Shown here: positions 22,349 to 29,276 of the stretch, in pieces | Numbering within the stretch: the first letter of the stretch is position 1 | How the letters are laid out: every line of letters starts with the position of its first letter | Assembly (NCBI GenBank): GCA_016928315.1 | Contig: JAFGKZ010000168.1 | Location: 1-45,790 of the forward strand | DNA: 45,790 nt | DNA from: Calditrichaceae bacterium | GTDB taxonomy: Bacteria > Calditrichota > Calditrichia > Calditrichales > Calditrichaceae | Reading direction: 5' to 3' | Made by a program: the position numbers and the translations under genes | Notes under the pieces: model-generated | Database searches by the model: none | Told to the model about the DNA's origin: nothing | What the model saw: the letters and a program-made list of their open reading frames with translations, nothing else

Positions 22349-22453
22349 CAAAATTATAAAGATACCCTATGATCCGGTATTAGTTTTATTTTTAGTATTT
22401 TTTTACTAAGTTCAACACCTATTCATTTTAAATAATCATATTTGGAGCGATGT

Positions 22454-23872
22454 ATGTTTAAGCATTTATTTTATATAAGTATGAGTTTATTTATAATATT
22501 ACAGTCATGTACACCTAGTATTGATTCTAAAATTGATGATTTGGTTAAAATGTATTCAAATAAGGATTATTTTTCCGGTGTTGTTCTTTATGCTAAAGAC
22601 GGCAAAATAGTTTATAATAAAGCATTTGGATTATCTAATCATGAAGAATCTATAAATAACACTATAGAAACTCGATTTAATATAGGCTCACTCAACAAAG
22701 ATTTTACTTATGTATTAATACTACAATTGTTATCTGAGGACTCTCTTAAACTCGATGATCCAATTGGACAATATATTGATGATTTTGACGATAATATATC
22801 AAAAAAGGTTACTATCCGGCATATCCTTCGACATGCCAGCGGCTTTGGTGATTATGGAATGCATCCGGAGTATCAAAAAAATCGTACAAAATTCAAAACT
22901 GTCGACGACCTTTTAAAACTAATCGTTTCGGAACCCCTTCTTTTTAAACCTGGATCAAACCGCTATTATTCGAATAGTGGTTTTATTGTCCTAGGAAAAA
23001 TCATCGAAAATATTACCAATAAACCCTATGCAGATGTTTTACAGCAAAGAATATTTGATCCGTTAGACATGAAAAACACTTATTATTCTCATTTAGATAC
23101 CTTAACAAACAGGGCAACAGGATATATAAAATCTGCAACAGGTAAACTTATTAAAACAATTCAATTTGAAAACTACGCAACTCCCGCAGGAGGTTGTTAT
23201 TCAACAACTGGTGATCTTTATAAATTTTATAGTGCCCTGGAGAATACAGATATTCTCTTAACCGATCCTCATAAAAAAATAATGTATGTATATGCTAATC
23301 CTGATATTAAACTTACCTGGGAAAAAATTATTTCAGATGAATCTATATTTAATGCAAAAGCCGGGGGATTCGAGGGTTTTAACGCCATGGTAGTCGAATG
23401 GATGGTAAAAGGAGAAATAGCCATAATTTTAGCAAATTATGATGAACCTGTCGCTGAAGAAGTTGGTAATGGTGTTTTCGCAATTATGAGAAATTTAAAA
23501 CCGGAAAAACCAAGATTACCTATAAAACAATATGTGTACAATCTATTAAACAAGGATGGGTATGACTATATGAGTATGCATTTTGATTCTCTAATGAAAT
23601 CACAAAATTACCAGTATGAAGATCCTTGGTTACTAAATCAAGTGGGTTATGATTTATTACATGAAAATTTGTTTGAAGAAGCAATCCAAATATTTAAACT
23701 CAATGTTAAGCGCTATCCTAAACTAGCTAATCCATATGATAGCTTGGGAGAGGCTTATATGAAGGCTGGAGAGAATGAATTAGCTGTTGAAAATTATAGC
23801 AAGTCTCTTGAACTGGATCCAACGAATCAAAATGCTATAAATATCATAGCAAAATTAATGGAAAAACAATAA
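22454..23872 (+). CDS. serine hydrolase (beta-lactamase class C/PBP type) with C-terminal TPR, lipoprotein
   Basis: 472 residues from the ATG at 22454, chosen because GGAG lies six bases before it; an in-frame TTG is four codons upstream. A lipobox ends at Cys19 (FIILQSC). The catalytic SxxK is Ser79-Leu-Asn-Lys82, Tyr172-Ser-Asn174 is the second motif, and KAGGFEGFN is the likely third. The fold is that of class C beta-lactamases, esterases and DD-peptidases; the actual substrate is unknown. The tail (about 390-472) has TPR units ending NPYDSLGEAYMKAGENELAV. It converges on the symporter gene with 12 bases between. Confidence 0.9.
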   Translation: MFKHLFYISMSLFIILQSCTPSIDSKIDDLVKMYSNKDYFSGVVLYAKDGKIVYNKAFGLSNHEESINNTIETRFNIGSLNKDFTYVLILQLLSEDSLKLDDPIGQYIDDFDDNISKKVTIRHILRHASGFGDYGMHPEYQKNRTKFKTVDDLLKLIVSEPLLFKPGSNRYYSNSGFIVLGKIIENITNKPYADVLQQRIFDPLDMKNTYYSHLDTLTNRATGYIKSATGKLIKTIQFENYATPAGGCYSTTGDLYKFYSALENTDILLTDPHKKIMYVYANPDIKLTWEKIISDESIFNAKAGGFEGFNAMVVEWMVKGEIAIILANYDEPVAEEVGNGVFAIMRNLKPEKPRLPIKQYVYNLLNKDGYDYMSMHFDSLMKSQNYQYEDPWLLNQVGYDLLHENLFEEAIQIFKLNVKRYPKLANPYDSLGEAYMKAGENELAVENYSKSLELDPTNQNAINIIAKLMEKQ

Positions 23873-23884
23873 TATCTTGAATAA

Positions 23885-25585
23885 TCACGACTGAGTTTCT
23901 TGGTCTGATTTATTGATTGGATTGAGAAAAATCGCTAGTGCGACCACAAGCACACAACCAATAAAATTAAACCACAGGAATGGCATGTCTGTAAAGAAGA
24001 AACATAAAAGTACTACAATTTCAGCCAGGATGGCCGCTATAAAAGTCGAAGTTCCTTTTACCCATTTGATGTAAAAAGCTACTAAAAATATACCTAATAT
24101 CGTTCCATAAAAAAGGGAACCTAATATATTTACAGCTTCAATAAGTGAACCCAATTTATTGGCAAACATGGCAAAGCCGATCGCATATGCACCCCAGAAT
24201 ATTGTTGCCATTTTTGAAACCAAGAGATAATGACGGTCACTGCCATCTTTCTTAAAAATCCGCTTGTAAATATCAATGACCGAGGTTGAGGCCAGAGCAT
24301 TCAACTCAGCAGAAGTGGATGACATGGAGGCTGATAATATGGCAGCTAACACTAATCCGATTAAACCGACAGGTAAAAAAGATATTACAAAATTCAGAAA
24401 AATATAATTGGTATCATTAGTATCTGCGTTGGGATTGGCCTGCTCAATAAGTGCAATGCCATCTTTACGGATCTCTTTTGCCTGATCATTTATACCATTT
24501 AATTTTACTTTCTGCTGTTGTATTTCGTTTTCATCATTTTGATCAATAGCCTGCAATAAATCTCTTATCTGAGATTGTTTTTCTTGATGGATCTCATCAT
24601 ACTGGATTTCAAGCGCTTTGTACTGGCTGGCATATGCACTGGTTTTAACATTTGTTTCTTCAACAGAGTTGAAAAAAATCGGTGGCGTAACAAACTGATA
24701 AAATACAAAAACCATTGCACCGATAAAAAGGATAATAAACTGCATGGGGATTTTAACCAGGCCATTAACCAGCAATGCCATCCGGCTCTGAGTAACCGAA
24801 CTGCCGGATAAATATCGCTGAACCTGTGACTGATCCGTCCCAAAATAAGACAACATTAAAAAAGTGCCGCCTATGAGTCCGGACCAGATATTATATCGTG
24901 TACTTAAATCAAAGTTAAAATCAATCACATTAAGACGACCCATTTTACCGGCAATATGAGCCGCATCCATTACAGAAATATCATCCGGCAGTAAACGGTA
25001 TATCATCACAAAAGCCATGACCATTCCAAAGGTGATAACAACCATTTGCTGCATATGCGTTTTGTTAACTGCAACCGTGCCACCGACCGTTGTATAAATA
25101 ATCACTAAAATACCAATGACAAATATGGTAAGATTGATATCCCATCCCAACAACACTGAAAGAATCAGTGCCGGAGCAAAGATGGTAAATCCGGCAGCAA
25201 GTCCCCGTTGCGTTAAAAAGAGAACGCTGCCCAGAATGCGATTTTTTAAATCAAAGCGCTGTTCCAGATATTCATAGGCGGTGTAAACATTTAAACGGTG
25301 AAAAATCGGCACAGCGGTTATGGATAAAATAATCATGGCAATAGGTAAGCCCAGATAGAACTGCACAAATCGCATGCCATCCACAAAAGCCTGGCCCGGC
25401 GTGGAAAGAAATGTGATTGCACTGGCCTGTGTTGCCATAATAGAAAGTGTCATCGTATACCATGGGGCTGATTTATTGGCCAGCAGATAATTTTTAACGT
25501 CTTTGCTACCGCGGCTTTTCCACGTACCGTATGTAACAATAAAAATCAGGAAGGAGGCGAGGACAATCCAGTCGATAATACTCAT
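23885..25585 (-). CDS. sodium:solute symporter (SSS family)
   Basis: 566 residues, about 13-14 hydrophobic helices. The N-terminus (SIIDWIVLASFLIFIVTYGTW), a conserved ATQASAITFLSTPGQAFVDG stretch and GTDQSQVQRYL fit the SSS fold of sodium-coupled sugar, nucleobase or amino-acid carriers. Between two helices, about residues 300-385, is a long hydrophilic insert rich in Glu, Gln and Lys with helical periodicity, likely a coiled coil or extramembrane arm. The gene begins on the stop of a 42-residue helical protein (ATGA overlap), itself overlapping the PIG-L deacetylase gene. The substrate is probably the product of that enzyme or its sugar-containing precursor; this is inference. Confidence 0.93.
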   Translation of the reverse strand: MSIIDWIVLASFLIFIVTYGTWKSRGSKDVKNYLLANKSAPWYTMTLSIMATQASAITFLSTPGQAFVDGMRFVQFYLGLPIAMIILSITAVPIFHRLNVYTAYEYLEQRFDLKNRILGSVLFLTQRGLAAGFTIFAPALILSVLLGWDINLTIFVIGILVIIYTTVGGTVAVNKTHMQQMVVITFGMVMAFVMIYRLLPDDISVMDAAHIAGKMGRLNVIDFNFDLSTRYNIWSGLIGGTFLMLSYFGTDQSQVQRYLSGSSVTQSRMALLVNGLVKIPMQFIILFIGAMVFVFYQFVTPPIFFNSVEETNVKTSAYASQYKALEIQYDEIHQEKQSQIRDLLQAIDQNDENEIQQQKVKLNGINDQAKEIRKDGIALIEQANPNADTNDTNYIFLNFVISFLPVGLIGLVLAAILSASMSSTSAELNALASTSVIDIYKRIFKKDGSDRHYLLVSKMATIFWGAYAIGFAMFANKLGSLIEAVNILGSLFYGTILGIFLVAFYIKWVKGTSTFIAAILAEIVVLLCFFFTDMPFLWFNFIGCVLVVALAIFLNPINKSDQETQS

Positions 25586-25710
25586 TCAAAAACCTTCGTA
25601 AATAGATAGAACAAAAAAATGAGCATTACGAGATTTAAAAAGACCAGTGTGTACAGTCTTTTCCAGGTTTTCAGAACAGGAACTTTATCATCTATATTAT
25701 GACCTGACAT
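25582..25710 (-). CDS. small single-helix membrane protein between PIG-L and symporter genes
   Basis: A 42-residue reading frame too short for most tracks. It starts MSGHNIDDKVPVLKTWKRLY and has one hydrophobic helix (about 19-38, LYTLVFLNLVMLIFLFYLF) with basic residues before it, so the N-terminus would be inside. Its ATG shares one base with the PIG-L stop (TAATG), and its TGA overlaps the symporter ATG (ATGA). This exact packing, and no other use for the gap, argue for a real gene. Small accessory subunits of this kind accompany some SSS carriers. No homolog could be named; the function (symporter subunit) is inference. Confidence 0.72.
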   Translation of the reverse strand: MSGHNIDDKVPVLKTWKRLYTLVFLNLVMLIFLFYLFTKVFE

Positions 25711-28187
25711 TATTTCTGTTTCCCCGCTGAAATCATATTCACAAATAAACGATAGGCGCCCGGGGCGCCGGCAGGCAACTGTCTGAAAAAAGACAAACCG
25801 GAGTAAATAAAAACACCTTTTCCATATTTTGCATATAACAGCGCCCCCTGCGTTTCATTTTCTCCTGTATCATTGCCTTTCAGAATGGGCTGGAAAGCCT
25901 TATCCCATTTTTCAGCAAAATAAAGTCCACGCTCCTGCACCCATCCATCGAAATCTTCCTGTGAAATCTTGTTCGGATTGTTTAACAAAGCGTGATCAGG
26001 ATTAATAAATTCCATTTTTACTGTTTCATCTGCGATGCGATCCCGTCCAATTTCGAATGAATAAGGACCAATTTGATCCGAACGATAACCAAATCTTGTA
26101 TTGTGCTGTACAATCCAGGTTCCGCCATTTTTTACGTAATCATTCAGCCGAATTTGCAGAGATTGCAGCGTTTCTCTCGTATTGAAGGCTCTTACTCCGC
26201 ATATTATAGCATCATATTTTGATAAATTTTGTGATTCAATATCATCATCAGATAGCAAATCAACCTGATAACCAACCTGCTCGAGTGCCGGGGGAATTTC
26301 ATCCCCAGGCCCCATAATATAACCGATTCGATCACCCTGTTTTGCCAGGTTTACACGAACAATTTCAGCTTGAGCTTGTTCAAAAACGGTTTGAATTGGT
26401 ATATGATCATATTCAATTCTATATATGGATTGATTCAATTCCCGTTTGCCGGTTGAAACCGATGCATAAACTGTTGCACTATTCTCATTTTTAGGGGGAT
26501 TAATTGTAAAAGTATATATCTTTGCTGGAGAATTTGCCTTGAGGTCAATCTCAAAAGATTCCGGCTGGCAACTCCAATTATCAGGTAGCTGTAACTTTAA
26601 TTTGCCTGAAACAGGTGCCTTATAGTTCTCGAGATGAATTTTAATTGGTTTTGATTCTTGATTCGCAAAGATATAAACAGATTGATCAATCCACACAGAA
26701 AGAGCAGGTTGAATAACAACCGGGCGATACATTTCTCCCTTTGTAGCATCGTTCCAGCGATGACGGACCGGAATTTGGTAAACTAAAACCTGATTCATTA
26801 TACCCATCGTGATTTGAGCAAGAAATTCAGGATCATTTTCTGCTTTACCAATCAACTTCTGGTCAGATACATTGAAACGTCCATATTCTGATGGTTCCCT
26901 GAGCCAGAACGGTTGGGAAATTTGGGCTGATTCAGGAATTTGTATTTTTGTTTTAAATTCAAATGGTTGATTATATTCCAGCTTTCGACTGAGATTGACT
27001 GCGTTATTACTACTAATAATTTTCAGTTTTTCTAAAGCTATAGGTAAATCTGATCGATTGATTGCGGTAATAGTAATGCCCAGCGAATCCCCTGGAATTA
27101 ATGTATGCTGATCCGCAATCGCTTCCAGCCACAACCCGGAACATTGCTGAATCAATTTTACAACGTCCGCTTTTTTCTTATCGATCCAGAAACCGGGCGC
27201 ATGTTTGTTTATTTCCCTGTAAACCGCTATTAATGCCGACACACTTTTTGATGGATTTTGGGGATTAAATTCATCTATAGCTTTCTGAATAAGCTGCTGT
27301 ATTTTTTCACTATTTTCTATACGATTCCAGGTCAAATCAATACCATCAAATAAGGATGTCTCGGCAGGATCGCCGGCTGTATGCTCAAAATAGTTGATAA
27401 AATTCCCCCGTTGGGCTGAAGAACCGAATCCCTGTGTTTTGTGCATAGTCCGGCTGATGGCGGCAATTTCCATATATGATTTTCCAAGTAATGGATTGTA
27501 ATCACCCAAATCAATTTGAATAATCGGTGGTAACGCTTTGGATCGGTTTTCCAGTTCAGGTCGCCAGGAATTCCACAAAATACGTTTTGCCTGCCAGGGT
27601 TCTACATATTTGAGCTGTTCTGGAAACTGATTCGGATTAGCTGCGGCCCTAAATGCTTCTTCTGCCAGTATCGCCGAAGCCAGATGATGCCCATGCCCGC
27701 CTTGCTCTTTAGAAAATCGGGTCAAAATGACATCCGGTTTAAAGTTACGAATAACCCAAACCAGATCGCTTAAAATTTTCTCTTTATTCCAGAATCGCAT
27801 CGTTTCTTCCGGTGTTTTGGAATAGCCGAAATCTATGGCTCTTGTAAAAAATTGTTCTGCTCCATCAATACGACGGGCGGCTAAAAGTTCCTGTGTGCGT
27901 AACACGCCGAGCAGATCATTTTTTTCCTGCCCCAATAAGTTTTGACCTCCATCTCCGCGTGTCATAGACAAATAACCGGTACGAACCAGTTTGCCTTTGG
28001 ACATATAAGCCATCACAGCTGTATTTTCATCATCCGGATGGGCGGCTATATAAAGTACGCTTCCCAGAACATTCAATTTATTCAGACCGAGTTCAATTTC
28101 AGCAGCATCTGCAGGTCGGATAGGCTGAGCTTGCATAATTTTTAATAAAACTAAACATGAAATAAGTAAATAAATTGATCTATTCAT
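25710..28187 (-). CDS. PIG-L family deacetylase, secreted multidomain
   Basis: 825 residues. A signal peptide (about 1-20) precedes a PIG-L/LmbE domain (about 40-270) with the zinc motif AHPDDE (His50, Asp52, Asp53) and the second metal histidines in EQGGHGHHLASAILAEEAF. The middle (about 300-590) is beta-rich, with regions resembling NEW3-type domains. The C-terminus (about 600-825) looks like a ThuA/class I glutamine amidotransferase-like domain (DLLSDDDIESQNLSKYDAIICGV; GTWIVQHNTR). Such enzymes remove N-acetyl groups from N-acetylglucosamine-type sugars; BshB in bacillithiol synthesis is a smaller relative. Position in an overlapping trio with a symporter suggests extracytoplasmic deacetylation coupled to uptake. 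Confidence 0.9.
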   Translation of the reverse strand: MNRSIYLLISCLVLLKIMQAQPIRPADAAEIELGLNKLNVLGSVLYIAAHPDDENTAVMAYMSKGKLVRTGYLSMTRGDGGQNLLGQEKNDLLGVLRTQELLAARRIDGAEQFFTRAIDFGYSKTPEETMRFWNKEKILSDLVWVIRNFKPDVILTRFSKEQGGHGHHLASAILAEEAFRAAANPNQFPEQLKYVEPWQAKRILWNSWRPELENRSKALPPIIQIDLGDYNPLLGKSYMEIAAISRTMHKTQGFGSSAQRGNFINYFEHTAGDPAETSLFDGIDLTWNRIENSEKIQQLIQKAIDEFNPQNPSKSVSALIAVYREINKHAPGFWIDKKKADVVKLIQQCSGLWLEAIADQHTLIPGDSLGITITAINRSDLPIALEKLKIISSNNAVNLSRKLEYNQPFEFKTKIQIPESAQISQPFWLREPSEYGRFNVSDQKLIGKAENDPEFLAQITMGIMNQVLVYQIPVRHRWNDATKGEMYRPVVIQPALSVWIDQSVYIFANQESKPIKIHLENYKAPVSGKLKLQLPDNWSCQPESFEIDLKANSPAKIYTFTINPPKNENSATVYASVSTGKRELNQSIYRIEYDHIPIQTVFEQAQAEIVRVNLAKQGDRIGYIMGPGDEIPPALEQVGYQVDLLSDDDIESQNLSKYDAIICGVRAFNTRETLQSLQIRLNDYVKNGGTWIVQHNTRFGYRSDQIGPYSFEIGRDRIADETVKMEFINPDHALLNNPNKISQEDFDGWVQERGLYFAEKWDKAFQPILKGNDTGENETQGALLYAKYGKGVFIYSGLSFFRQLPAGAPGAYRLFVNMISAGKQK

Positions 28188-28304: not shown

Positions 28305-29276
28305 TTACAAATCTGATAACGCCTTTTTAATTCGATCCTTTTGATTTTCAGGGGCAGATTTTAGAGCAGCTTCGTAGTATTTTTTTGCATTCTTTTTATC
28401 ACCAAGCGTTTTATAGGCCTCGCCAAGACTGTCTTTAACATTCCAGCTATCCGGATATTTCTTTACATTTTCTTTAAATACTTTTAGTGCTTCGTCATTT
28501 TTACCGGCTGCCAGAAGAATATAGCCGTATATATTACGGTTTGTTTCATTCTCGTTCATTGCGATAGACTTTTTGGCCCATTCTTCACCTTTATCAAGAA
28601 ACGTATTGCTCCGAACACAGTAAGAAGCCGCCTGGTTCCAACCTTGCCAGGTAAATCCTGCCGTGTTACGTAATTGGTTTTCAATATTTTTGATTACCGT
28701 ATTGTCAACATCAAATTCAATTTTAAAAGGTACTTTGACTTTTTCCCAGTGCAAATAGGCGTTAACACTATTAAATGTGATTGTATCAAATCCATATTCC
28801 AGCCACTCTTTGTGTTCAGCCGTTTGTGGTTTCAGTTTGACCCGCAAAACATCTTCCTTCTCATCATAATAAAAACTGCCCCAGGATGTGGCATTGCTGC
28901 TCAAAATCAATGTCCATTCTTCCGGTTCTACAATCATAAATAAACCGTAGGTACCGGCTTTGATTGGCTGGCCTTCAATTTTTGCATCATCTGTGAAAGT
29001 AATTGTTGTGTTCTCATTGGCTCCGGCGCGCCAGGGGGCGGGATTGCCTTTGCCAAACTGGAATGTCGTCAGGCCGTAAGGTACTAGTTTTCCCCAGATT
29101 TCTCTTCCCTTTACGGCTGGGCGGTGATAAGAAATTTTGACCCAGCTTAACCCGAGTTCCTGTTTAACCACGGCTGCCGGACTGGCCATCGGTGTTGTGA
29201 TCAATTGAGCTTTCAGTTCACTACTCATTAAAATTGTCCCGATTAAAACGGTTAACAATAGAATAAGTTGACGCAT
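28305..29276 (-). CDS. DUF2911 domain protein with C-terminal TPR
   Basis: 323 residues. A signal peptide (about 1-23, ending LKAQ) precedes a DUF2911 domain (about 30-170), recognisable by YHRPAVKGREIWGKLVPYG, PWRAGANENTTITFTDD and GTYGLFMI. TPR-type helices follow (about 225-320), ending SWNVKDSLGEAYKTLGDKKN. DUF2911 proteins are frequent in Bacteroidota relatives, exported and of unknown function. A good ribosome binding site (AAAGGAGAAAATT before ATG) sets the start. Its TPR tail resembles that of the serine hydrolase at 22454. Confidence 0.88.
   Translation of the reverse strand: MRQLILLLTVLIGTILMSSELKAQLITTPMASPAAVVKQELGLSWVKISYHRPAVKGREIWGKLVPYGLTTFQFGKGNPAPWRAGANENTTITFTDDAKIEGQPIKAGTYGLFMIVEPEEWTLILSSNATSWGSFYYDEKEDVLRVKLKPQTAEHKEWLEYGFDTITFNSVNAYLHWEKVKVPFKIEFDVDNTVIKNIENQLRNTAGFTWQGWNQAASYCVRSNTFLDKGEEWAKKSIAMNENETNRNIYGYILLAAGKNDEALKVFKENVKKYPDSWNVKDSLGEAYKTLGDKKNAKKYYEAALKSAPENQKDRIKKALSDL

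Follow-up and report, generated by a model that had tools for sequence, protein, structure and literature searches.

Gene layout and encoded proteins

The window (the whole analysed stretch of 45,790 nucleotides from a Calditrichaceae bacterium) carries on its minus strand a row of three genes that encode, in 5'->3' order, a PIG-L family deacetylase of 825 aa (28187-25710), a microprotein of 42 aa (25710-25582; MSGHNIDDKVPVLKTWKRLYTLVFLNLVMLIFLFYLFTKVFE) and a sodium:solute symporter (SSS) of 566 aa (25585-23885). Base 25710 is common to the TAA stop codon of the PIG-L gene and the ATG start codon of the microprotein gene (TAATG), and the TGA of the latter overlaps the ATG of the SSS gene by four bases (ATGA, 25582-25585). 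The sequence itself confirmed the three-gene overlap with a 42-residue, one-helix middle gene that a sequence-only reading of the locus had described; the interval given there for the unit, 25582-28187, covers the PIG-L and microprotein genes and omits the body of the symporter gene, which extends to 23885. The features are as follows:

23885..25585, minus strand: sodium:solute symporter, 566 aa, 13 expected helices (TM0-TM12); Pfam SSF 5.3e-35, TIGR00813 2.5e-64
24437..24667, minus strand: helical hairpin insert of the symporter, approximate (about residues 307-383); alignment and AlphaFold model of a homologue
25582..25585, minus strand: ATGA junction (microprotein stop/SSS start); read from the sequence, recurrent in relatives
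25582..25710, minus strand: microprotein, 42 aa, single helix, proposed accessory subunit of the symporter
25706..25712, minus strand: TAATG junction with flanking bases (PIG-L stop/microprotein start); read from the sequence
25710..28187, minus strand: PIG-L family deacetylase, 825 aa; Pfam PF02585 3.5e-17
27684..27695, minus strand: HGHH motif of PIG-L; residues 1, 2 and 4 invariant in 38 homologues
28026..28043, minus strand: AHPDDE metal-binding/catalytic motif of PIG-L; invariant in 38 homologues
28305..29276, minus strand: DUF2911 and TPR protein, frequent neighbour of the unit; Pfam PF11138 1.3e-48

The DUF2911 gene lies upstream of the unit; on its other side, a beta-lactamase-fold protein (PF00144) with C-terminal TPR is encoded convergently with the SSS gene (22442-23872). 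Among 80 named PIG-L loci (L041-L120; Bacteroidota, Ignavibacteria, Acidobacteria, Eisenbacteria), no other additional gene accompanied the PIG-L/SSS unit as often as DUF2911 (with TPR), which was present at 29, usually in convergent orientation.

The symporter belongs to the SSS family (TC 2.A.21) according to its matches to PF00474 (121.5 bits, cut-off 22.8) and TIGR00813 (217.9 bits, cut-off 184), and the model of a homologue revealed a LeuT-type fold (versus SiaT 5nva: E 5e-20, TM-score 0.88 by target length); sodium-coupled transport is predicted. SiaT (5nv9/5nva) is the nearest solved relative both by fold and by sequence (E 3.3e-59 in the PDB profile search); however, at an identity of approximately 23% the substrate of the window SSS cannot be derived from this likeness, and the alignment showed that SiaT is devoid of a long hairpin insert of approximately 75 residues between TM7 and TM8. 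When a homologue was modelled with AlphaFold in one frame with its microprotein, the insert formed two helices (349-390 and 394-425). From the general SSS topology the hairpin is expected on the periplasmic side, where it might possibly serve as docking site for a periplasmic partner.

The PIG-L protein scored 63.5 bits against PF02585 (cut-off 28.2; E 3.5e-17) and comprises a signal-like N-terminus, an N-terminal PIG-L domain, a beta-sandwich middle part and a weakly ThuA-like C-terminal region (Pfam match with E 1.5e-4, below the ThuA cut-off). The AHPDDE and H-G-x-H residues are invariant in 38 homologues. In fold (MshB 1q7t, E 2.1e-9) and motifs the catalytic domain resembles MshB, the GlcNAc-inositol deacetylase of the mycothiol pathway; in contrast to the latter, the window protein bears a signal and is longer by approximately 520 residues, and it stays far below the MshB/Mca/Bsh equivalog cut-offs (47.7 bits versus 277 bits and lower; NCBIfam). 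On account of the invariant motifs, the MshB-like N-domain and the signal-like N-terminus, a periplasmic deacetylation by PIG-L can fairly be inferred, in agreement with the extracytoplasmic location that had been proposed earlier.

Occurrence and conservation of the microprotein

Homologues of the microprotein are mostly 38-54 aa long, with a W-x-x-x-Y pattern ahead of their single helix; none of 60 homologues deviates at W16 or Y20 (numbered as in the window). They are encoded 5' of an SSS gene of the same clade in the phylum of the window as well as in Bacteroidota, Ignavibacteria, Acidobacteria and Eisenbacteria. Codon changes were mostly synonymous (median dN/dS of 0.11 over 129 close pairs), and identical microprotein cores were retained in three Flavobacterium-like loci despite a dS of 0.9-2.3. 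The 42-aa ORF is a real gene rather than a chance reading frame.

Within the phylum of the window the microprotein was found in 12 of 40 genomes, the window's own included, and PIG-L in the same 12; the SSS gene follows the microprotein gene in 10 of the 11 relatives, even where foreign genes split the unit, and is located elsewhere in the genome of the eleventh (L037). An M13-type peptidase gene stands between the PIG-L and microprotein genes at L030 (6007-8022), and at L033 (7128-9627) the microprotein and SSS genes are separated by those for a DNA cytosine methyltransferase and a Vsr-like endonuclease. All 52 named PIG-L loci with an adjacent SSS gene possess the microprotein, which the first model detected in 51 and the second in L093. 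Of the named loci, 51 allowed the junction to be measured, and 39 of these have the four-base ATGA overlap, as do 43 of 101 sampled Bacteroidota loci.

As a rule each genome contains one microprotein match, and the window's genome holds a single copy (next match E 1.9); second matches at L160 and L211 were taken as chance. One contig of G384 has the unit twice, close to either end (C1:21555-23222 and 3845810-3847489), with several stops in one of the SSS genes; this probably reflects a circular genome whose assembled ends overlap.

The expectation that the microprotein would lack annotation was borne out: the 60 members had no significant Pfam or NCBIfam match (best E approximately 0.003, scattered over unrelated models), and a literature search found no report of the PIG-L/SSS pair or of this 42-aa microprotein. 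Plasmid records that were searched for an annotation of the ORF included no SSS match.

Association with symporter and deacetylase

Among 396 Bacteroidota genomes, 123 encode both the microprotein and a symporter of the SSS clade, two the microprotein only, 21 the SSS only and 250 neither (Fisher 4e-77). Both microprotein-only exceptions (two of 125 genomes) are peculiar: L243 has a broken adjacent SSS gene, and the doubtful match in G183 contains a stop. Approximately 16 of the 21 SSS-only genomes (partly as read by eye) possess a divergent one-helix ORF at the microprotein position that received a weak or no score from the microprotein profile. The association is confined to one clade of symporters: in 20 genomes, the microprotein gene was located beside 20 of 21 genes of this clade versus none of nine SSS paralogues. 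Clade members (520-1047 bits) and paralogues (below 200 bits) are separated by a gap in bit scores, and 231 clade sequences stand apart from the paralogues in the tree with a support of 1.0; the window's genome has one match to the clade. The microprotein is a real, widespread and unnamed protein that is specific to one SSS clade.

The deacetylase is linked to the same symporters. In the 396 genomes, all 107 with a core SSS also encode PIG-L, six encode PIG-L alone and 283 neither (Fisher 2.5e-90); core and divergent SSS were distinguished by bit scores followed by a tree check, and the borderline G226 was assigned to the core with its adjacent PIG-L known beforehand, the tree grouping it with G203 and G234. 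The resulting dependency is nested, with the microprotein within SSS and the core SSS within PIG-L. The divergent SSS lineages comprise 37 genomes without PIG-L: the microprotein was detected by profile in 21, and the other 16 have SSS only by profile, mostly with a similar ORF. Loci of the divergent branch that keep the microprotein without PIG-L include L213, L216, L217, L226, L227, L234, L250 and L257; the gene often found upstream at these loci (L213, L216 etc.) is presumably WbqC-like.

The constant company of core SSS and PIG-L supports the earlier view of the three genes as a functional unit. The claim of a microprotein dedicated to this coupled system stands as far as a real and dedicated protein is concerned, and is refined in that it is the symporter, not the deacetylase, to which the protein is tied. 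Loss of the frame with both flanking genes kept, which had been named as the observation that would speak against the claim, proved rare (four of 107 core-SSS genomes) and concerns two lineages: G203/G226/G234, which form one branch of the SSS tree and in which PIG-L overlaps SSS directly, and G252. Since these lineages retain PIG-L and SSS, the microprotein is not always essential.

Proposed role of the microprotein and its alternatives

Because its gene is strongly conserved and accompanies one particular sodium-driven transporter, the microprotein is probably a dedicated helper; we accordingly regard it with reasonable confidence as an accessory subunit that crosses the membrane once and serves the symporter whose gene follows. 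A role as membrane anchor or partner of PIG-L appears very improbable. It would account for PIG-L being the usual upstream neighbour of the microprotein (78 of 107 sampled Bacteroidota loci) and for two genomes (L037, L109) in which the microprotein gene stays beside PIG-L with the SSS gene elsewhere; against it stand eight genomes (Dyadobacter, Nafulsella, Runella, Lacihabitans, Bryobacteraceae and one Cytophagaceae) in which PIG-L is not adjoined by SSS and the microprotein gene directly precedes SSS at another site, the aforementioned divergent branch that mostly keeps the microprotein or a similar ORF without PIG-L, and three Ignavibacteria genomes that have PIG-L, no SSS of the clade and no microprotein. 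As the microprotein stays mostly with SSS when PIG-L is unlinked and the paralogues are without it, it belongs to the symporter and not to the deacetylase.

The frequency of the ATGA overlap, the commonest arrangement, would also suit a leader or translational-coupling device, from which ribosomes re-start on SSS and whose peptide is itself inert; however, the amino acid sequence is conserved (see dN/dS and the invariant W16 and Y20 above), and the ORF persists where the SSS gene is remote. In G128, G144 and G190 the SSS gene lies approximately 15 kb downstream, and selection nevertheless preserves the frame; SSS is still present in every genome with such a separation, including G365 (approximately 108 kb apart on the same contig), L037 and L109. 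A frame maintained without adjacency argues for a trans-acting protein rather than a leader peptide, and we hence hold the leader reading to be highly unlikely. (In the three related genomes G128, G144 and G190, at loci L215, L214 and L219, respectively, the gap includes a gene for an SLC13-like carrier that is read in the opposite direction.) Regulation of SSS, by inhibition or by FtsH protection or delivery as for MgtR or MgtU, would fit the sections of a 2023 review drawn on here, according to which one-helix bacterial proteins of similar size often regulate transporters (MgtR, MgtU, MgtS, AcrZ; PMC10710835); the fixed co-translation with SSS and the near-constant presence are better compatible with a stoichiometric partner than with a conditional regulator, so that this explanation seems quite unlikely.

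For the accessory subunit a cytoplasmic N-terminus and a periplasmic C-terminus are predicted from the distribution of charges: K/R residues are in excess on the N side of the helix in 80% of 174 unique sequences versus 4% with the reverse, the N stretch counted being the longer one. Contact with the symporter was approached by modeling and covariation. In the AlphaFold model of homologue L096, with microprotein and SSS in one frame and the TAG read as Gly, the SSS part folded well and the microprotein helix was left unplaced (pLDDT approximately 35-45); a microprotein-SSS fusion was looked for and none was found. A first mean-field covariation pass gave a top z of 9.5 for microprotein-SSS pairs versus 5.0 for the PIG-L control; after resampling, the best microprotein-SSS values (6.4-8.7) were barely above those of microprotein-PIG-L pairs (5.7-6.9) and shuffled rows (6.9). 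Only one recurrent pair, 25-82, remained mostly above the controls; covariation was therefore dropped as proof of contact after resampling and fairer controls. Rows with the microprotein alone proved misaligned, and the alignment containing them was discarded.

Small membrane partners of related transporters are known. MetS and its relatives are tiny one-helix subunits encoded with LeuT-fold methionine/alanine importers, which, unlike the window symporter, belong to the NSS family; DUF4212, YhdT (DUF997) and YjcH (DUF485) are encoded beside SSS genes (VC_2705-type, PanF, ActP) and have two helices and approximately 70-110 aa. None of them matches the microproteins: the MetS models of Pfam/NCBIfam and the DUF4212, DUF485 and DUF997 profiles were absent among the matches of the 60 members (Pfam and NCBIfam, E <= 0.1). 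MAP17 (PDZK1IP1), the partner of the human glucose transporter SGLT2 (SLC5A2), offers the closest functional precedent: it is likewise a single-helix partner of an SSS-family symporter, and its topology is opposite to that predicted for the microprotein. The SGLT2-MAP17 entries match the modelled SSS of the window clade by fold. Its one helix contacts TM13 of SGLT2 and is required for SGLT2 function and stability (PMC10803289, PMC12605011); in contrast to the microprotein, MAP17 is longer, and TM13 (PMC10803289) lies beyond the 13 helices (TM0-TM12) expected in the window SSS. Homology to MAP17 was not significant (one of 60 microprotein members matched PF15807, with E 0.099, and the PDB profile search was without MAP17); the system is analogous, but probably not homologous, to MAP17-SGLT2. 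In the sections considered, the 2023 review lists no comparable small protein that acts on an SSS carrier (PMC10710835).

As an accessory subunit, the microprotein, usually translated just before SSS via the overlapping stop and start codons, would insert N-in/C-out and pack against the symporter and, if the MAP17 precedent holds, may be needed for its folding, stability or activity. Going solely by family membership, the secreted PIG-L would remove an acetyl group from a periplasmic substrate, and SSS would import the deacetylated product, or the released acetate, together with sodium. A more far-reaching version, in which the whole SSS clade receives an additional membrane helix in trans from the microprotein and the three proteins constitute one periplasm-facing machine with PIG-L docking on the hairpin and handing over its product, is considered unlikely.

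If the accessory role is confirmed, a large unnamed microprotein family would provide the dedicated subunits for an SSS clade that is widespread in bacteria. The need of a LeuT-fold symporter for one additional helix could then be investigated in a bacterial system, a question that SGLT2-MAP17 likewise raises. A PIG-L deacetylase is, furthermore, tied to one transporter across phyla, and therefore the substrate of either protein may be searched for through the other.
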